Source of the DNA: Candidatus Kapaibacterium sp.
GTDB taxonomy: Bacteria > Bacteroidota > Ignavibacteria > Kapaibacteriales > HRBIN21
DNA: 64,000 nt
Direction: 5' to 3'
NCBI GenBank assembly: GCA_938084565.1
Contig: CALKEU010000001.1
Coordinates: forward strand, 1 to 64,000
The notes beneath the pieces were generated by a model. That model did not search any database, had not been told where the DNA came from, and saw only the letters and a list, made by a program, of their open reading frames with translations. A program made the translations under genes and the position numbers. Within the stretch, counting starts at the first letter, position 1. Each line of letters starts with the position of its first letter. This document shows positions 32,884 to 41,948 of the stretch, piece after piece.

Positions 32884-34068
32884 ATGCCACGCGCCGCCGT
32901 CATCGTATCAGCTGTGCGGACACCCATTGGAGCTTTCCTGGGCTCGCTCTCGGAGTTACCGGCCCCACGCTTGGGGGCTATTGCCATTGGCGAAGCCATT
33001 CGCCGGGCCGGCATTGAGCCCCACATGGTCGATGAAGTTATCATGGGCAACGTGCTAACCGCCGGCGTCGGGCAAGCACCAGCCCGGCAAGCAGCCATCT
33101 TTGCCGGACTTCCTGAGCATGTTCCCTGCATGACAATCAACAAAGTCTGCGGTAGCGGGCTCAAAGCCGTCATGCTCGCTGAGCAAATCATCCGGTGCGG
33201 AGATGCCGACATCGTCGTAGCGGGTGGACAAGAGTCAATGTCGAATGCTCCGTATTTGCTGCCGAAAGCCCGCACAGGATTCCGCATGGGCAACACACAG
33301 CTTATCGACTCCATGATTCACGACGGCCTCTGGGACGTGTACAACCAGTTCCACATGGGAGAGGCAGCAGAACTGTGTGCCCGCAGCTGCAATATCAGTC
33401 GCGACGAACAGGATGAGTATGCGGCCCTCAGCTATCGCCGCGCACTCGATGCACAAGCCCAGGGGTACTTCGCCGAGGAAATCGTACCCGTTACCTATGA
33501 ACGCTCCAACGGGCAAACCGTTACTGTTGCTCACGACGAGGAGCCGGCGAAAGTCCGCTTCGAGAAAATCCCCCAACTCAAGCCCGTCTTCCGGCCCGAT
33601 GGGACGGTTACAGCGGCGAATGCAAGTTCGATCGACGACGGAGCTGCCGCTCTCGTCGTCATGTCTGAGGAACGGGCAGCTGCTCTCGGACTCCGCCCCC
33701 TAGCCCGTATTGTTGCCCATGGCTCCGTTGCGCAGCGCCCTGAATGGTTCACCACAGCCCCCATTGAAGGCATCCGCCACGTTCTGCGCAAAGCTGCCCT
33801 GTCGCTTCAGGACATCGATCTTTTCGAGATCAACGAAGCCTTCGCTGTCGTCGCGCTCGTGGCGCAAAAACAACTGGAAATCCCACTCGACAAACTCAAC
33901 ATCCACGGTGGTGCCGTCGCGCTCGGACATCCCATCGGGGCCTCCGGAGCACGCATCCTGACAACCCTACTCTACGCCCTCCGCCGCTATCGGAAACGCT
34001 ATGGTCTAGCCGCTATCTGCATCGGCGGCGGCGAAGCAAGCGCCCTCATCGTGGAGAGCCTCCAATAG
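32884..34068 (+). CDS. Thiolase (acetyl-CoA C-acetyltransferase type)
   Basis: This is a 394-residue thiolase from ATG 32884 (MPRAAVIVSAVRTPIGAFLG); the 21-residue ORF-track extension spans the promoter. The nucleophile is C89 in NKVCGSGLKAV. The second acid/base set is present in GGAVALGHPIGASGAR (His) and AAICIGGGEASALIVE (Cys). EINEAFAVVAL carries the NEAF motif. It condenses two acetyl-CoA or cleaves acetoacetyl-CoA/3-ketoacyl-CoA. No other beta-oxidation or PHB genes flank it. It lies 86 bp before sufB, with a dyad that could act as operator or terminator between them. Confidence 0.92.
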   Translation: MPRAAVIVSAVRTPIGAFLGSLSELPAPRLGAIAIGEAIRRAGIEPHMVDEVIMGNVLTAGVGQAPARQAAIFAGLPEHVPCMTINKVCGSGLKAVMLAEQIIRCGDADIVVAGGQESMSNAPYLLPKARTGFRMGNTQLIDSMIHDGLWDVYNQFHMGEAAELCARSCNISRDEQDEYAALSYRRALDAQAQGYFAEEIVPVTYERSNGQTVTVAHDEEPAKVRFEKIPQLKPVFRPDGTVTAANASSIDDGAAALVVMSEERAAALGLRPLARIVAHGSVAQRPEWFTTAPIEGIRHVLRKAALSLQDIDLFEINEAFAVVALVAQKQLEIPLDKLNIHGGAVALGHPIGASGARILTTLLYALRRYRKRYGLAAICIGGGEASALIVESLQ

Positions 34069-34078
34069 CCCGATCAGC

Positions 34079-34103
34079 AAATCCGACTGCAATAGTCCGA
34101 TTT
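34079..34103. promoter_or_regulatory. Predicted IscR/Rrf2-type operator before the suf operon
   Basis: The 25-bp dyad AAAT-CCGACTGCAATAGTCCG-ATTT has half-sites CCGACTG and TAGTCCG separated by 3 bp. Against the E. coli IscR type 1 consensus YYGACTR-www-YAGTCRR the two half-sites agree at 13 of 14 positions, and over the full 25-bp consensus about 19 of 25 agree. It lies 52 bp before the sufB ATG. The operon itself encodes an Rrf2 protein with an IscR-like Cys triad. An alternative is a weak rho-independent terminator for the thiolase gene: the same dyad can form a 9-of-10 bp stem with a 5-nt loop, followed by a short TTCTCC run. Confidence 0.5.
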
Positions 34104-34154
34104 TCTCCTCGTCAACACCTCAGATGCCAGGTGTGACAGGTGATGTGAACCCCC

Positions 34155-35600
34155 ATGCCTACGCAGCAGGATGAGCTTCTCGAGCGACTCACGGGCTCTG
34201 AGTACAAGTACGGCTTCGTCGCAGACATTGACGAAGAGCTAGCCCCCATTGGGCTCAATGAAGACATCATTCGCTTCATCTGGGAGCGCAAGGGGGAGCC
34301 AGAGTGGATGCTGGAGTGGCGTCTGCGCGCTTTTCGCCATTGGAGGACGATGGAAGAGCCGCGGTGGGCCAAGGTAGTCTATCCGCCCATCGATTATCAG
34401 GCCATTCGCTACTACGCTGCCCCGAAGAAACGGCATGTGCAGAGCCTCGAGGAAGTAGATCCCGAAATCCGCCGCATCTTCGACAAATTGGGGATTCCGC
34501 TGGAGGAGCAAAAGCTCCTGGCCGGGGTTGCCGTCGACGCCGTCTTGGACAGCGCCTCAGTGGCAACAACCTTCAAGGAAAAGCTTGCCCAGCTCGGCAT
34601 CATCTTCTGCTCCATGAGCGAGGCAATCCAGAAGTATCCAGAGCTTGTGCAGCGCTATCTGGGATCTGTTGTGCCGTACACGGACAACTTCTTTGCGGCG
34701 CTCAACTCTGCTGTCTTCAGCGATGGCTCTTTCGTCTACGTTCCGCCGGGGGTGCGTTGTCCGATGGAGCTGTCGACGTACTTCCGGATCAATGCTGCTC
34801 GGACGGGGCAGTTTGAGCGCACCCTCATTATCGCCGATGAAGGCTCTTACGTGAGCTACTTAGAGGGCTGCACTGCACCGATGCGGGATGAGAATCAACT
34901 CCACGCTGCCGTGGTGGAGTTAATTGCTCTCGATGGGGCAGAGATTCGCTACTCGACCGTGCAAAACTGGTACCCAGGCGATCGCGAAGGGCGCGGCGGC
35001 ATCTATAACTTCGTTACCAAGCGGGGCATCTGTCTGGGCAAGGAAGCCAAGATTTCATGGACACAGGTAGAGACCGGCTCGGCCATCACGTGGAAGTATC
35101 CGAGCGTCATCCTCAAGGGTGACGGCAGCATTGGAGAATTCTACTCCGTGGCTCTCACAAACCACCACCAGCAAGCCGACACAGGCACGAAGATGATCCA
35201 CATCGGTCGGCATACCCGCAGCCGCATCGTCTCGAAGGGCATCGCTGCCGGACGCAGCAACAACACCTACCGCGGGCTGGTCCGCATCCTACGCGGGGCC
35301 GACTATGCGCGCAACTACACCCAGTGTGACTCCCTCTTGATTGGCAACGCCTGCGGAGCACATACCTTCCCCTACATCGAAGTGCTCAACCCAACGGCGG
35401 TGACGGAACACGAAGCGACAACTTCCAAAATCGGTGATGACATGCTCTTCTACTGCCGGCAGCGGGGCATTGCAGAAGAGGATGCCATCGCTCTCATCGT
35501 CAACGGTTACTGTCGCGAGGTGCTGAATCACTTGCCCATGGAGTTCGCCGTTGAGGCACAGAAGCTGCTGGCAATCTCGCTTGAAGGCAGTGTAGGATAA
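34155..35600 (+). CDS. sufB: Fe-S cluster assembly scaffold SufB
   Basis: The 481-residue SufB is the main scaffold subunit of the SufBC2D complex on which Fe-S clusters are built. Hallmarks are [16 protein letters not shown], the conserved core [26 protein letters not shown] and [14 protein letters not shown], followed by [23 protein letters not shown] and [22 protein letters not shown]. Length is as usual. It heads a tight operon: sufC follows 17 bp later. The leader has no Shine-Dalgarno (aacccccATG). An IscR-like dyad lies 52 bp upstream. Confidence 0.97.
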
Positions 35601-35617
35601 TCTCTGCACGACACACC

Positions 35618-36400
35618 ATGGAGCCACTTCTCAGCATACGGAATCTCCGAGTCGCCGTCGACGGACGGGAAATTCTGAAGGGCATCGATCTCGAGGTGTG
35701 CCGCGGTGAGGTGCATGCGATCATGGGCCCCAATGGTTCGGGCAAAAGCACCTTGGCAGCTGTTCTGGCCGGACGTGAGGGGTACGAAGTGCTCGAGGGC
35801 GAGGTGCTCTACAACGGGCAGAACCTGTTCGAGATGGAGCCCGAGGAGCGAGCTCGTGCGGGACTCTTTCTGGCCTTCCAGTACCCTGTGGAAATTGCTG
35901 GCGTCACCATGGCCACTTTTCTGCGGACTGCCCTGAACGAGATCCGCAAAGCCCGTGGGGAAGAAGCGCTCGATCCTCTCGCTTTCCTGACCCTTGCTCG
36001 AGAACGGATGGAATGGCTCGGGATCGATCCGAGCTTCCTCCACCGTGCCGTCAACGAAGGCTTCTCCGGTGGAGAGAAGAAGCGCAGCGAGATCTTCCAG
36101 CTGTTGCTGCTGGAGCCACAGCTAGCCATACTGGACGAAACCGATTCAGGGCTCGATATTGATGCGCTCAAAATCGTTGCCTCCGGCGTCAACCGGATGC
36201 GCGCCCCCGAACGGGCCTTCATTGTCATTACGCACTACCAGCGCTTGCTCAACTACATCGTACCCGACATCGTACACGTGCTCTTTGACGGACGCATCGT
36301 CCGCTCGGGCGGCCGAGAGCTCGCCCTGCAGCTAGAGGAGCACGGCTACGACTGGCTCCGCACCGATGGGGAAACGGTTGTCCTGCCAACTCTCGAGTAA
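35618..36400 (+). CDS. sufC: Fe-S cluster assembly ATPase SufC
   Basis: This 260-residue ABC-type ATPase drives conformational change of the SufB-SufD scaffold. Walker A is GPNGSGKSTL (about 38-47), signature FSGGEKKRSEIFQLL, and Walker B LAILDETDSGLDIDALKIV; the ETDSGLDID segment is specific to SufC. AFQYPVEIAGVTMATFLRTALN also matches the family. It lies between sufB (17 bp) and sufD (2 bp). Confidence 0.97.
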   Translation: MEPLLSIRNLRVAVDGREILKGIDLEVCRGEVHAIMGPNGSGKSTLAAVLAGREGYEVLEGEVLYNGQNLFEMEPEERARAGLFLAFQYPVEIAGVTMATFLRTALNEIRKARGEEALDPLAFLTLARERMEWLGIDPSFLHRAVNEGFSGGEKKRSEIFQLLLLEPQLAILDETDSGLDIDALKIVASGVNRMRAPERAFIVITHYQRLLNYIVPDIVHVLFDGRIVRSGGRELALQLEEHGYDWLRTDGETVVLPTLE

Positions 36401-36402
36401 CC

Positions 36403-37701
36403 ATGGCCATCCCTGACCTTCAGACCCGCCTGCGGGAGACCTTCCAGCGCTGGATGCAGCAGGACAATCATCAGCGCTGGAGTCCACGCCATCCCTTGCG
36501 CCGCCATGCACTCGAGATCTTTGAGCGTCTCGGATTCCCGACCACACGGCACGAAGACTGGAAGTACACCAGCTTAGCCCCTGCGCTACGCCCAGCCTAC
36601 CGCATAGAGATCCCCTCGCTCCCAGATCTTGCTTTGCTGCCCTCGCAGCTTCCAGCTCTGGAAGGCTTACCGTCGCCACAGCTGTGGCTCCTCAACGGGA
36701 TTCCCGTCCCTGTAGCCCTCCCTCCCCATAGCCACTTCCAGAGCTTCCTCCATGCCGAAGATGCCGATCCGCCGCTTGGCGATATTCTCCCAAGCGAGAC
36801 AGAAGCCCTTGTAGCCCTCAACACAGCCTTCGCTCCCGACGTAGCAGCATTGACCATATCGGGACACGGAGACGGAGTCTTGCATCTTGCCCTTGTGACA
36901 ACTGCTGCAGATGAGCCCCAGCTTGCGCATCCACGGCTCTCGCTGACACTCGAGGCCAATGCCCGCCAGCGTCTGCTCCTGAGCTTCCACACACTCGGCA
37001 CATTGCCTGCTTTCACCAATACCGTTGCCGAGATTCGCCTCGGACCCAACACCCAGCTTGAGCTCATCCTGTGGCAGCCCGAATCCTCGACAGCCTTCGC
37101 CATAACCACACTCGGCATCGAGCTAGCCCAGAATGCTCACCTCTCCCTCTGGACGCTTTCGCTCGGTGGGGCTTTGGTGCGGAACAATCTGTATATTCGC
37201 CTCAGCGGGCCGGCTGCGACAGCACAACTGTTCGGAGCCACGATGGTAGAGGGGCAGCATACGGTAGACCACCGCACATACGTTGAGCACCGGGCAGAAC
37301 AGTGCACGAGCAATCAGCTCTACAAATCCATCGCCGATGGACACGGTACGGTGACCTTCACGGGGCGTATCTACGTCCACCCACAAGCCCAGAAGACGAA
37401 TGCTTACCAATCGCACCGAGCAGTGTTGCTCACCGGGACCGCAACTGTCAATGCACGACCACAACTGGAAATTTACGCCGACGACGTGCGCTGTACCCAT
37501 GGTGCGACTGCGGGCTCGCTCGATGAATCAGCCCTCTTTTACCTGCGCTCTCGCGGGGTTTCGCACGCTCAGGCCCGGGCACTCCTGCTCCATGCTTTCC
37601 TTCGCGAGGCGCTGGTACTCCTGCCTGACGAGCGCCTCCGCCAACGCGCCGATGCGCTCCTGGCTGAACGAGTCCACCTCCAAGCCGCCGAGCTGCTATG
37701 A
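36403..37701 (+). CDS. sufD: Fe-S cluster assembly scaffold SufD
   Basis: The 432-residue SufD is the non-catalytic partner of SufB in the SufBC2D complex, needed for iron acquisition during assembly. The N-terminal half is poorly conserved but contains TRHEDWKYTSLAPALR. The C-terminal beta-helix is typical: YVEHRAEQCTSNQLYKSIADGHGTVTFTGRIYVHPQAQKTNAYQSHR and CTHGATAGSLDESALFYLRSRG, with the conserved His. The stop overlaps the sufS start by 4 nt (ATGA). Confidence 0.95.
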   Translation: MAIPDLQTRLRETFQRWMQQDNHQRWSPRHPLRRHALEIFERLGFPTTRHEDWKYTSLAPALRPAYRIEIPSLPDLALLPSQLPALEGLPSPQLWLLNGIPVPVALPPHSHFQSFLHAEDADPPLGDILPSETEALVALNTAFAPDVAALTISGHGDGVLHLALVTTAADEPQLAHPRLSLTLEANARQRLLLSFHTLGTLPAFTNTVAEIRLGPNTQLELILWQPESSTAFAITTLGIELAQNAHLSLWTLSLGGALVRNNLYIRLSGPAATAQLFGATMVEGQHTVDHRTYVEHRAEQCTSNQLYKSIADGHGTVTFTGRIYVHPQAQKTNAYQSHRAVLLTGTATVNARPQLEIYADDVRCTHGATAGSLDESALFYLRSRGVSHAQARALLLHAFLREALVLLPDERLRQRADALLAERVHLQAAELL

Positions 37702-38957
37702 GCTGGCCAATGCCATCGGCCTCAGAAGTTATCTCCGTGGAGACCGTCGCTCAGTGGCGGGCAGACTTCCCGATTCTGCAGCGCACCGTCTACGACAAGC
37801 CCCTGGCCTATTTGGACAATGCCGCAACGACACAGAAACCTCAGGTCGTCCTGGAGGCCGAGGAGCGCTTCTACCGTGAATTCAACAGCAACGTCCACCG
37901 TGGAGTATACTACCTCAGCGAGCGCGCCACCGAACTCTACGAAGCAGCTCGACGGACTGCTCAGCGCTTCCTCAATGCAGCTTCTCCCGAGGAAATCGTG
38001 TTCGTCCGCGGGACCACAGAGGCTATCAACCTGGTAGCCCATTGCATGGCACGGAGCCGTCTGCGCCCGAATGCTGAGATTGTGCTCACCCACATGGAGC
38101 ACCACTCCAACATTGTCCCCTGGCAATTGGCTGCCGAGCAAACCGGGGCTCGCCTGCGCGTCATCCCAATCACCGAGCAGGGTGAGCTGGATCTGAGCCA
38201 CCTGGAGGAGTTCTTCACCGAGCGCACAGCCTTGCTGGCCGTCGTACATGTGTCGAACTCCCTCGGCACGATCAACCCTATTGAGGAGCTCATCCGCAAG
38301 GCCCATGCATACGACATCCCCGTCCTCGTCGATGGGGCTCAGGCAGTTGCCCATCTGCCCATAGATGTGCAGGAGCTGGGCTGCGATTTCTACGCCTTCT
38401 CCGGCCACAAGGTATACGGTCCCACGGGAATCGGGGTCCTCTACGGTCGGCGTCGCTGGCTTGAAGAATTCCCCCCATATCAGGGCGGGGGCGACATGAT
38501 CCGCCAAGTTACCTTCGAGCGCACTCTCTACAACGAGGTCCCCTACAAGTTTGAAGCGGGGACGCCGAACATTGCCGGGGCAATTGGGCTGAAGGCAGCT
38601 TTAGAGTACATTCAACAGCTGGGCCTTGAGCGGATTGCTGCTCACGAGCACTTCCTGCTGACTTACGCTACCGAGCAGCTCCAGCGCATTCCCGGGCTAC
38701 GGATTATCGGCACAGCATGGCGCAAGGCGGCCATTGTCTCCTTCGTCGTCGAAGGCATCCACCCGCACGATCTCGGCACTATCGCCGACCGTGAGGGGAT
38801 TGCCATCCGTGTGGGGCATCACTGCACACAGCCGGTGATGGACTTCTTCGGCGTGCCCGCCACCGCACGCGCCTCCTTTGCTCTCTACAACCTCCCCGAG
38901 GAGGTTGATCGCTTGGTTGCAGCAGTGCAGAAGGCTGTGGAGCTCTTCCGAGCATAG
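37698..38957 (+). CDS. sufS: Cysteine desulfurase SufS
   Basis: The 419-residue PLP enzyme mobilises sulfur from cysteine as a persulfide for cluster assembly. YLDNAATTQKP is the N-terminal hallmark. The PLP lysine is K238 in FSGHKVYGPTG, and the persulfide cysteine is C376 in RVGHHCTQPVMDFFGV, on the short loop of group II desulfurases. HVSNSLGTINPIEEL and DGAQAVAHLPIDV are further matches. It is coupled to sufD (ATGA) and precedes sufU by 3 bp, the order found in Gram-positive-like SUF systems. Confidence 0.97.
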   Translation: MSWPMPSASEVISVETVAQWRADFPILQRTVYDKPLAYLDNAATTQKPQVVLEAEERFYREFNSNVHRGVYYLSERATELYEAARRTAQRFLNAASPEEIVFVRGTTEAINLVAHCMARSRLRPNAEIVLTHMEHHSNIVPWQLAAEQTGARLRVIPITEQGELDLSHLEEFFTERTALLAVVHVSNSLGTINPIEELIRKAHAYDIPVLVDGAQAVAHLPIDVQELGCDFYAFSGHKVYGPTGIGVLYGRRRWLEEFPPYQGGGDMIRQVTFERTLYNEVPYKFEAGTPNIAGAIGLKAALEYIQQLGLERIAAHEHFLLTYATEQLQRIPGLRIIGTAWRKAAIVSFVVEGIHPHDLGTIADREGIAIRVGHHCTQPVMDFFGVPATARASFALYNLPEEVDRLVAAVQKAVELFRA

Positions 38958-38960
38958 AGC

Positions 38961-39404
38961 ATGGACGAGCTACGCGAACTCTACCAGCAGCTCATTCTGG
39001 AGCACTACCGCAACCCCCGCAATTTCGGGGAGCTGCCCGAGGCAACACACCGCGCCGAAGGGCATAATCCTCTCTGCGGTGATCGGCTTGAGGTGGCACT
39101 CCGTATCGATGGGGAGCACATCGTCGAGATACGCTTCCGCGGGAGCGGATGCGCTATCTCTCAGGCCTCCGCCTCTGTGATGACCACACTCGTCAAGGGG
39201 ACCAGTGTGTCCGAGGCGATGGCCCTAGCCGACCGTTTCCACCGTGTCCTCCTCGGTCAGGAAGTGCCCAGCCCGGAGCTAGGCCCCCTGGCAGCCTTTG
39301 CCGGCGTGAGAGAGTTCCCCTCGCGGGTCAAGTGTGCAACACTTGCATGGCATACCCTGCGAGCAGCACTCCAGCAAGTGTCCGAGCCCGTCACAACGGA
39401 GTAG
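38961..39404 (+). CDS. sufU: Zinc-dependent sulfur transferase SufU
   Basis: The 147-residue SufU accepts the persulfide from SufS. The conserved Zn/sulfur ligands are visible as C39 with D41 (NPLCGDRLEV), C64 (GSGCAISQAS) and C125 (RVKCATLAWH). It has the SufU insertion between the second and third cysteine that distinguishes it from IscU. It directly follows sufS, as in Firmicutes-type suf operons. The SufT-fusion gene begins 14 bp later. Confidence 0.95.
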   Translation: MDELRELYQQLILEHYRNPRNFGELPEATHRAEGHNPLCGDRLEVALRIDGEHIVEIRFRGSGCAISQASASVMTTLVKGTSVSEAMALADRFHRVLLGQEVPSPELGPLAAFAGVREFPSRVKCATLAWHTLRAALQQVSEPVTTE

Positions 39405-39418
39405 CGTCCGTAGTGCCA

Positions 39419-40123
39419 ATGAGTCAGCCCTCCAGCGAGCTGCACCGTCTCCCCGTCAGCCAAGTCATCGAGGGGGCAGAGCCCGCCGACGATATCTACG
39501 TCACAGAACGGGCACTTGCCGCCTTACGTGAATTGCGACAGCTCAATCACTTGCCGGACCACTACGTCGTTCGATTGGGCGTCCGCTTCGGGCCGCCGCC
39601 TCGGCGCGTGCCCTATACGCTTGGGTTCGACGCCAGCAGCCGCCCAGAAGACCACCTCTTTCCACTCGGCGAGCTCCGCTTCGTCATCGACGCCCGCAGC
39701 CTCTTCTACCTGATGGGAGTCACGCTCGACTACACCGAGGGTCCCACGGCCCGGGGGTTCTTGTTTCAAGAACCTGCGCACCCTCAGCCCGCCGAAGGAA
39801 TGCCGGCAGGCTCACCTCAGGCTGAGCTGCGCGCACGTATCATCGAAGCTCTCAAGACCTGCTACGACCCAGAAATCCCCGTCAACATTTGGGACCTAGG
39901 GCTCATCTATCGCATCGACATTGACGAACAACACAACGTGCACATCACCATGACGGTCACCGCTCCAGCATGCCCCGTAGCCGATCTACTCCCCCAGCAA
40001 GTCGAAGAAGCTGTCCGCCAGGTACCTGGCGTCGGGACGGTAAAGGTAGAGCTGACCTTCGAGCCTCCGTGGCATATGGGCATGATGTCTGAAGCAGCTC
40101 GTCTACAGCTTGGGCTGTTGTGA
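39419..40123 (+). CDS. Fusion of a cysteine-less A-type carrier domain with a SufT/MIP18 (DUF59) domain
   Basis: This is a 234-residue protein from ATG 39419 (MSQPSSELHRLP); the ORF-track 5' extension is sufU shadow. Residues about 25-118 are clearly homologous to the A-type carrier encoded 0.8 kb downstream: YTLGFDASSRPEDH and FVIDARSLFYLMGVTLDY align with YVLGFDPEPRADD and FIDRRSLFYLMGVTLDF. All three cluster-ligand cysteines are absent: the GGC position is PPP, and the CGC tail is replaced by HPQPAEG. Residues about 135-220 are a MIP18/SufT domain (CYDPEIPVNIWDLGLIYRI, C185 in TAPACPVADLL). SufT matures Fe-S proteins in other bacteria. I infer a docking or regulatory role for the degenerate half. 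Confidence 0.88.
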   Translation: MSQPSSELHRLPVSQVIEGAEPADDIYVTERALAALRELRQLNHLPDHYVVRLGVRFGPPPRRVPYTLGFDASSRPEDHLFPLGELRFVIDARSLFYLMGVTLDYTEGPTARGFLFQEPAHPQPAEGMPAGSPQAELRARIIEALKTCYDPEIPVNIWDLGLIYRIDIDEQHNVHITMTVTAPACPVADLLPQQVEEAVRQVPGVGTVKVELTFEPPWHMGMMSEAARLQLGLL

Positions 40124-40148
40124 TGAATCACCAACGTACAACACCACA

Positions 40149-40484
40149 ATGAGCGACGCACACCACTTGGTACCAGCAGAGCAGCCTCAGGGAACTTCCG
40201 CCCTATCGACCGTGCAAGTGAGCGTGCGCCTCTACGGGGAGGAGCACTCCTTTAGCATGCGACCGGACGAGCACATCCTCTACGCTGCTATCGCTGCAGG
40301 CCTGGATGCACCGCACTCGTGCCTGAGCGGGTACTGCGCTACCTGCCGAGCCAAACTGCTCGAAGGCCGCGTGCGGATGGAAATCAACGATGCCCTCACC
40401 GATGAAGAGGTGGCTGCCAACTACATCTTAACGTGCCAGGCCCTGCCACTGACGGACCGTATTGTAGTGGACTACGACCAGTGA
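40149..40484 (+). CDS. [2Fe-2S] ferredoxin, plant type
   Basis: The 111-residue protein starts at ATG 40149 (MSDAHHLVPAEQPQ). The cluster ligands are C58, C63, C66 and C96 (HSCLSGYCATCRAKL ... ILTCQALP), the CX4CX2CX29C spacing of plant-type ferredoxins and of the ferredoxin module of PaaE-like reductases. A short variable N-terminus precedes the core. It probably donates electrons for cluster assembly or to a Fe-S dependent enzyme. Its TGA overlaps the Rrf2 ATG by one base (TGATG), so regulator synthesis may be coupled to ferredoxin translation. Confidence 0.92.
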   Translation: MSDAHHLVPAEQPQGTSALSTVQVSVRLYGEEHSFSMRPDEHILYAAIAAGLDAPHSCLSGYCATCRAKLLEGRVRMEINDALTDEEVAANYILTCQALPLTDRIVVDYDQ

Positions 40485-40897
40485 TGCTGCGGCTTTCTCG
40501 ACGTGTCGAGTATGCCCTGTTGGCGCTGCAGTATCTGGCGCGGCGGGGCAGTACAGCATCTGTGCGCGAAATCGCCCAGGCCTACTGTCTTTCGCCTGAA
40601 TTTCTGGCTAAAGTCTTGCAACAGCTGGCGCGAGCCGGTATCGTACGAGCTCAGCATGGGCTCTACGGCGGGTATGCTCTCCGACAGCCTCCACACCATC
40701 TGACGTTGGCAACCATCATCAGCGCTGTGGAGAATCTCTGGACAGGCCTCGTCGAATGTCGGACATCTCAAGAACGGTGCGCTCTCTTCCAGTACTGCAC
40801 GATCCGCCATCCCCTGAGCGTCTTAGAAAATCGGGTGCGCGCCATCTTGGAATCGACCACCTTGGCCGAGTTAGTCGAACCAACCCACGTCCAGTAA
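40484..40897 (+). CDS. Rrf2 family regulator with IscR-like cysteine triad
   Basis: This 137-residue winged-helix regulator starts at ATG 40484 (MLRLSRRVEYALLALQYLA); the ORF-track extension is ferredoxin shadow. The N-terminal helix-turn-helix includes REIAQAYCLSPEFLAKVLQQLARAGIV and the GLYGGYALRQPP wing. Cysteines C92, C99 and C105 (VECRTSQERCALFQYC), with a histidine shortly after, closely mirror E. coli IscR C92/C98/C104. It is therefore a likely Fe-S-sensing repressor. The matching dyad in front of sufB (34079-34103) would be its target, giving feedback control. Confidence 0.9.
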   Translation: MLRLSRRVEYALLALQYLARRGSTASVREIAQAYCLSPEFLAKVLQQLARAGIVRAQHGLYGGYALRQPPHHLTLATIISAVENLWTGLVECRTSQERCALFQYCTIRHPLSVLENRVRAILESTTLAELVEPTHVQ

Positions 40898-41287
40898 ATG
40901 GAGAGCCTGATGCAGGATGTACAGCTGACCTTTGCCATTGACGGGGCTGATGCCAACGATGCTATCACGATTACGGCCCGTGCTCTGGAGGAACTCCACC
41001 GCATCCGGCGCGAGCAGAACATCCCCTCCCACTATGGGCTACGGATGGGGATTCGTGGAGGCGGATGTTCCGGATTTTCCTACGTTCTCGGGTTTGATCC
41101 TGAGCCCCGAGCCGACGACCTCGTGCTCGAGGCTAGTGGCATCCCGGTCTTTATCGACCGGCGCAGCCTCTTCTACCTGATGGGTGTCACACTCGACTTT
41201 GCCGATGGCCTTCTCCAGCGCGGCTTTACATTCCGCAACCCGAACGCCGTACGTACCTGCGGCTGTGGACACTCCTTTGCCGTCTGA
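40898..41287 (+). CDS. A-type Fe-S carrier (IscA/SufA/ErpA family)
   Basis: The 129-residue protein has an intact three-cysteine ligand set: C57 in GGGCSGFSY, and C121 and C123 in RTCGCGHSFAV. It would accept clusters from SufBCD and pass them to apoproteins. ATG 40898 follows the Rrf2 stop directly (TAAATGG); ATG 40910 (MQDVQLTF) is a possible internal start. The central FIDRRSLFYLMGVTLDFADG is nearly identical to the degenerate domain of the SufT fusion, showing duplication within the operon. Confidence 0.94.
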   Translation: MESLMQDVQLTFAIDGADANDAITITARALEELHRIRREQNIPSHYGLRMGIRGGGCSGFSYVLGFDPEPRADDLVLEASGIPVFIDRRSLFYLMGVTLDFADGLLQRGFTFRNPNAVRTCGCGHSFAV

Positions 41288-41315: not shown

Positions 41316-41948
41316 ATGCCCTACCAATGGCCCTTCAATCCACGCCCCTACTCTGACGAGGAAGCCCGTGAGCTCCTGCGCGAGGTCATCTCCCCCGAGA
41401 CAGCCGATTGGCACTATAACACCCATCACAGAGGCTACGTAGCTGCGCTCAACCGCATTGAAGAAGAACTTGAGCGGGCAGACCGTTCAGCAGCCAACGG
41501 GAATTGGTCCCACATCGGGGAGCTCAAGCGCCGCTTCACGTGGAATCACGCTGGCGCGCTCCTGCACGACATTTACTGGAAGGTGCTCGGGGGCGACGGA
41601 GACCCGAGCAAGGGGCCCGACGTCGTTGCCGCTATCGAACGGGAGTTCGGAAGCCTAGAGGCCTGGAAAACCGATTTCAAGGCAACGGCCCTCTCGGCTA
41701 AACTCTCAGGGTGGGCTCTCCTGGTCTACGACCAGCTCTACAGCGGGCGTTTGCTCAATGTTGTGGTCGACGAACACCACTATGGCGCCATCTGGGGTGG
41801 CATCCCGCTCATTGCCTGTGACGTCTTCGAGCATGCTTACTATCACAAAGATGGCCCCGCCCGCGCCCGCTATGTGGATAACTTCCTTGCACACCTCCAC
41901 TGGGGCCGTATCAATGAGCTCTATCGAACGTACGTACTCCGCCAGTAA
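41316..41948 (+). CDS. Fe/Mn-type superoxide dismutase
   Basis: The 210-residue SOD has the expected ligand set H33 (DWHYNTHH), H84 (ALLHDIYW), D169 and H173 (CDVFEHAYY). The family signature DVWEHAYY reads DVFEHAYY here, followed by an unusual HKDGPARARY. EHHYGAIWGGIPL resembles the His-type outer sphere of mycobacterial and archaeal SODs rather than the Gln of E. coli enzymes, so the metal (Fe, Mn or cambialistic) is uncertain. It dismutates superoxide, protecting solvent-exposed Fe-S clusters, which fits its place 28 bp after the A-type carrier. TGAGTTTG at 41285-41292 is one mismatch from the local promoter motif. Confidence 0.93.
   Translation: MPYQWPFNPRPYSDEEARELLREVISPETADWHYNTHHRGYVAALNRIEEELERADRSAANGNWSHIGELKRRFTWNHAGALLHDIYWKVLGGDGDPSKGPDVVAAIEREFGSLEAWKTDFKATALSAKLSGWALLVYDQLYSGRLLNVVVDEHHYGAIWGGIPLIACDVFEHAYYHKDGPARARYVDNFLAHLHWGRINELYRTYVLRQ

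Follow-up and report, generated by a model that had tools for sequence, protein, structure and literature searches.

The inverted repeat in front of the sufB gene, found within a 64,000-nucleotide stretch of DNA (the window), is almost certainly a genuine and deeply conserved operator of the suf operon, as predicted from its recurrence in related genomes. A RisR-like Rrf2 protein encoded in the same operon would act through it as an autorepressor, and this model, in which the operator core coincides with the IscR type 1 site, is held as a whole with considerable confidence. The elements around the dyad are as follows.

34079 to 34103, no strand assigned: predicted operator dyad, inverted repeat AAATCCGACT-GCAAT-AGTCCGATTT with one arm mismatch; conserved core GAC-N7-GTC at 34085-34097
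34083 to 34089, plus strand: left half-site CCGACTG; GAC at 34085-34087 invariant in the genus (columns G36 A37 C38)
34093 to 34099, minus strand: right half-site TAGTCCG; AATAGTC at 34091-34097 invariant in the genus (columns A42 to C48)
34098 to 34105, plus strand: promoter-like box position, degenerate in the window (CGATTTTC); TATATTT(G) in most relatives
34109 to 34113, plus strand: TCGTC, some 11 bp past the dyad core, invariant in 6 of 6 genus members

The 17-bp motif CCGACTGCAATAGTCCG (34083-34099) lies within the inverted repeat, and its start is followed 72 bp downstream by the ATG of sufB (34155). On the other side, the dyad begins 10 bp past the thiolase stop at 34068. The first-pass annotation had described the motif as an IscR type 1-like dyad with a 3-bp spacer, and the sequence confirms the agreement with the E. 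coli half-sites (YYGACTR-N3-YAGTCRR) at 13 of 14 positions. Such a match on its own is weak evidence and is non-significant in one window: with at most one mismatch, 0.51 occurrences are expected per 64 kb and at least one appears in 36 of 100 shuffles, so that the pattern alone is rejected as evidence. An Rfam search around the dyad gave no RNA family match. The TCGTC at 34109-34113 is conserved amid otherwise poorly conserved DNA and is a candidate promoter or leader element.

The dyad is regarded as more than chance because it is conserved across relatives. The sufB loci were collected from 60 related genomes, and 58 regions ahead of the first operon gene were usable. The GAC-N7-GTC core is present in 40 of these 58 suf promoters of the order, compared with 1.27 on average and at most 6 in dinucleotide shuffles (n=300), which bears out the earlier proposal of a genuine operator before a SUF operon outside Proteobacteria. 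Searched without a prior, the commonest gapped palindrome is GACT-N5-AGTC, found in 23 of the upstream regions. In the alignment of six species of the genus, GAC and AATAGTC are invariant, and the rest of the intergenic stretch is poorly conserved. With a weight matrix whose training set was restricted to other families, the window site scores 26.0 bits, the next best position in the 64 kb reaching 6.2, and a scan of 1.9 million positions with the weight matrix returned only three sites of at least 15 bits outside suf promoters.

The same result was obtained with a 26-position model built without the genus of the window. Across the whole 1.87-Mb genome at E<=10, this model has a single match, at 34079-34104. 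A search of relatives, set beforehand as the check on conservation upstream of suf, yielded a match at E<=0.1 in 52 of 61 genomes of the order, mostly the suf site. In the wider class, matches stand directly upstream of sufB in 14 genomes of families f14 and f15. Two exact GACTR-N3-YAGTC sites elsewhere in the genome (C1:101674 and C7:9575) are treated as chance, since the model misses both even at E<=10. The position of the site tracks the first gene of the operon, whether this is sufB or rrf2, and tandem sites occur at several loci (L042, L043, L044, L076, L081, L085). Within family f3, both half-sites are altered jointly to GATTA...TAATC, as expected of a symmetric protein site. One locus at a contig edge (L035) carries the exact site, and in a few relatives the site is weak or absent (L061, L067).

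Downstream of the dyad, the suf genes form an operon in which family models assign most members, and the predicted repressor is the eighth gene.

34155 to 35600, plus strand: sufB, first gene of the operon; NF008773, 890.6 bits against a cut-off of 717
35618 to 36400, plus strand: sufC; TIGR01978 above cut-off
36403 to 37701, plus strand: sufD; TIGR01981 above cut-off
37698 to 38957, plus strand: sufS cysteine desulfurase; TIGR01979 above cut-off
38961 to 39404, plus strand: sufU; TIGR01994 above cut-off
39440 to 40123, plus strand: degenerate A-type domain fused to SufT (DUF59); TIGR02945 above cut-off with a TIGR00049 stretch, start codon approximate
40110 to 40484, plus strand: ferredoxin-like protein, from the same family-model search as the suf genes
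40478 to 40897, plus strand: rrf2, predicted repressor of 139 amino acids, gene 8; PF02082, with Glu9, Ala42/Lys43 and Cys92/99/105
40898 to 41287, plus strand: sufA-type carrier; TIGR00049 above cut-off
41316 to 41948, plus strand: superoxide dismutase, named from sequence alone

In the fusion protein at 39440-40123, the A-type (IscA/SufA-like) domain is N-terminal and has none of the three A-type cysteines; matches over the full length were found only in the genus of the window, and most other families match the SufT part alone. In most of the order, the superoxide dismutase gene stands 3′ of sufA as the last of the suf cluster, an arrangement that points to shared control of superoxide defence and Fe-S assembly.

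The regulator belongs to the Rrf2 family (PF02082, 103.7 bits against a cut-off of 30), and its gene is the only rrf2 in the whole genome. The AlphaFold model (pLDDT 86) has the standard Rrf2 fold with an uncertain cluster loop, and its best PDB matches are CymR, RsrR, IscR and NsrR, with TM of 0.7-0.8. The cysteines at 92, 99 and 105 (numbered from the ATG at 40478), already pointed out in the first-pass annotation, are indeed there and align with the three of IscR; three cysteines are present in 58 of 58 proteins of the order. Likewise, a glutamate (Glu9 in the window) occupies the position of NsrR Asp8 and RsrR Glu8 in all 58. The cross-subunit cluster ligand of RsrR is numbered Glu8. By these alignments, the cluster would be ligated by Cys92/99/105 together with Glu9 of the other subunit, and the invariant Glu9 is consistent with a [4Fe-4S] cluster and with repression by the holo-form. 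A [4Fe-4S] cluster is somewhat favoured over [2Fe-2S]. The [2Fe-2S] sensing assumed earlier finds no support in these details, as the position of the IscR ligand His107 holds K, R or Q in 58 of 58 proteins of the order.

The absence of this His ligand also bears on the possibility of a true IscR type 1 system, in which a [2Fe-2S] protein would recognise DNA as in E. coli and would move between type 1 and type 2 sites according to its holo or apo state. Such a reading would draw on the agreement with the type 1 half-sites, on the three aligned cysteines and on the E. coli iscR promoter site CCGACTAAATCAGTCAAG, which has the same GAC-N7-GTC and an A-rich centre. Against it, the recognition helix is different: the window protein has Glu39, Ala42 and Lys43 where IscR has Ser40, Glu43 and Gln44, and throughout the 58 proteins the Gln44 position is Lys and the Glu43 position is Ala, Ser or Gly. 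The IscR models score far below their cut-offs (TIGR02010, 51.6 bits against 207.55; PRK10857, 32.4 against 275), and the nearest NCBIfam model is the SUF regulator TIGR02944, with 90.9 bits under a cut-off of 110.65. Conservation in the lineage covers the GAC-N7-GTC core and does not extend to the YY...RR flanks of the E. coli consensus. IscR in the strict sense is thus ruled out by the model scores, the missing His107 and the missing Ser40/Glu43/Gln44, and a true IscR system is considered highly unlikely. The notion of type 1 recognition survives for the core and lacks support for an E. coli-type IscR, given the helix residues, the flanks and the model score.

The dyad is very probably bound by the Rrf2 protein of its own operon, a prediction based on the co-occurrence of site and gene. 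Among 59 named loci compared across many phyla, GAC-N7-GTC is present upstream of 12 of 26 suf clusters containing rrf2, as opposed to 2 of 33 lacking it (Fisher p 0.0005); two loci (L142 and L159) have a similar dyad with no rrf2 detected. The core or near variants of it also precede suf-linked rrf2 in Legionella, Methylococcaceae, Acidobacteriota, Myxococcota and Rhodospirillales (L145, L151, L148, L164, L165, L106), so this type of operator is not confined to Bacteroidota. At other loci (L092, L099, L119, L123, L137, L147, L155), an Rrf2 gene of a second type, with weaker scores, is located 5-6 kb downstream of sufB; these loci have no GAC-N7-GTC upstream of sufB and possibly use a different regulator. 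The Rrf2 tree joins L097, from a named Bacteroidota genome, to family f3 of the order (support 98/95), and the order is accordingly placed in Bacteroidota; the suf-linked Rrf2 of Polyangia (L165) falls outside the rows of the order.

The targets of the operator vary within the order. For the window genome, suf is the only target at the sensitivity of the 26-bp model. In family f2, the operator lies upstream of DUF4856/imelysin iron-uptake operons in seven genomes (L191, L196, L197, L198, L199, L201, L204); it is further found before TonB-dependent receptors in f2, f3 and f4 and before cytochrome bd oxidase in f6 (loci of the receptor and oxidase copies: L214, L217, L219, L220, L221, L213). Weak non-suf matches within coding regions were left uncounted (L209, L218, L223, L224). 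A dyad near a DUF4856-like gene in one further genome (G033, L183) lies inside signal-peptide codons and was dropped as chance, the f2 sites being upstream of the gene. The combination of iron uptake and Fe-S targets would fit an iron or Fe-S sensor.

These iron-uptake targets could also be taken to mean that the operator is genuine and yet is bound by an unlinked regulator, e.g., a Fur-like or other iron-responsive protein, and the binding of Rrf2 to the dyad is itself predicted from sequence. The association of the site with suf-linked rrf2 across phyla, the footprinting of the same core for RisR and the status of the operon protein as the sole Rrf2 member of the genome make an unlinked regulator very improbable.

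The promoter context agrees with a site that acts on DNA. In most relatives, TATATTT(G) follows directly 3′ of the right arm, as seen in position counts, and the consensus of the Bacteroidota -7 box is TAnnTTTG (PMC9723704). The box at 34098-34105 is likely a part of the sufB promoter, an assignment inferred from the relatives and tentative in the window, where the box is degenerate (CGATTTTC). The idea that the dyad serves only as the terminator of the thiolase transcript, through a hairpin acting in RNA and with a fortuitous operator resemblance, can draw on the nearby thiolase stop, a possible hairpin with a U-rich tail and an RNA fold of -10.7 kcal/mol, but it is extremely unlikely because the fold is weak (z-score just -1.5), the dyad is absent from the list of the terminator scan, and the upstream gene is on the opposite strand in 19 of 54 relatives, among which sites are still present (e.g., L048, L050, L058); moreover, the core and the A-rich centre are conserved letter by letter, the site is repeated in tandem at some loci, the dyad adjoins the -7 box and other target promoters bear the same site. 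The features of an intrinsic terminator, a G+C-rich hairpin with a T run behind a co-directional gene, were not found here, the scan being negative and the neighbours divergent in those 19 of 54.

The conservation of the operator, its position, its linkage to rrf2 and the three cysteines can be read directly from the sequence. The dyad is taken as the operator of an autorepressor on the grounds that RisR footprints the same core and that the helix residues here are E43A-like. In the proposed mechanism, a homodimer of the operon-encoded Rrf2 (40478-40897) would bind the dyad when loaded with its cluster. Bound beside the -7 box of the promoter, it would block RNA polymerase and thus repress suf together with its own gene. 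A shortage of iron or clusters, or oxidant damage, would lead to the loss of the cluster and the release of the repressor from the dyad. As a result of the derepression, the SUF proteins, the superoxide dismutase and the regulator would be made, closing a RisR/IscR-type negative feedback loop that turns the operon down once clusters are sufficient. By analogy with these systems, cluster-dependent repression of suf is judged probable. In the genus of the window, the dyad would represent a dedicated local switch, as it is the sole site in the genome; in sister families, the same operator also stands before iron-uptake genes.

The regulatory logic and the operator core are already known. The literature searched, open-access for the most part, yielded neither a characterised regulator or operator of SUF on the Bacteroidota/Chlorobiota side nor a description of this lineage, its regulator and its iron-linked targets. 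Type 1-like cores outside the IscR clade have a precedent, since the same core has been footprinted for RisR (PMC9973013). A broader reading is offered tentatively: the order and further families of the class may use a RisR-like sensor with three cysteines and a glutamate in trans, whose Ala/Lys helix reads the type 1 core, the regulon varying around a fixed suf (suf alone in the genus of the window; suf with TonB receptors, imelysin or cytochrome bd in sister families), and the core may be an ancient Rrf2 operator. If this is true, IscR and non-IscR lineages would have the type 1 core in common from an ancestor and would have exchanged the recognition helix alone. The site, the regulator and the likely regulon have become predictable for each individual genome, and GAC-N7-GTC may be an ancestral operator common to Fe-S Rrf2 regulators whose helices and clusters differ.

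The nearest described case appears to be RisR of Myxococcus, likened here by its published description. RisR belongs to the Rrf2 group IS6, which is reported to include Chlorobi; it likely carries a [4Fe-4S] cluster, and its holo-form footprints GAC-N7-GTC and represses suf and isc (PMC9973013). Both proteins have three cysteines, are associated with this core at the suf promoter and do not conserve Ser40/Glu43/Gln44 of IscR, and the RisR site, with AT-rich flanks and an overlap with the promoter, resembles the context of the dyad. RisR differs in repressing both isc and suf, in its cysteine spacing (92/102/108, C-X9-C-X5-C, versus 92/99/105) and in its phylum. Among the equivalogs, the SUF regulator model TIGR02944 is the best: all 56 aligned members match it and their genes are in suf operons, although the window protein falls under its curated cut-off.

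E. coli IscR shares the core with an A-rich centre upstream of iscR, the three aligned cysteines and the negative feedback on Fe-S assembly. It differs in its [2Fe-2S] cluster with His107 and in the Glu43/Gln44 helix, and its type 1 sites control isc, whereas a type 2 site serves to activate suf in E. coli. In apo-IscR, Glu43 bars type 1 binding, and the E43A variant binds type 1 sites (PMC5411485). The Rrf2 of this lineage may be seen as a natural counterpart of that variant, which has become able to bind type 1 sites even when it carries no cluster. NsrR of Streptomyces coelicolor has a similar helix (Ala44/Lys45) and an acidic residue 8 (Asp8, compared with Glu9 here) that ligates a [4Fe-4S] cluster across the dimer; it senses NO, however, and differs in its operator sequence and its targets (PMC5411485, PMC9338935). 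The Ala/Lys helix does not alone predict the site, because this NsrR with Ala/Lys binds another operator. Finally, in Rhodobacter sphaeroides one palindrome bound by IscR, the Iron-Rhodo-box, links Fe-S assembly with iron uptake (PMC4618611), as the operator may do in the sister families, but that IscR ligates its cluster by a single cysteine and its 19-bp palindrome is different.
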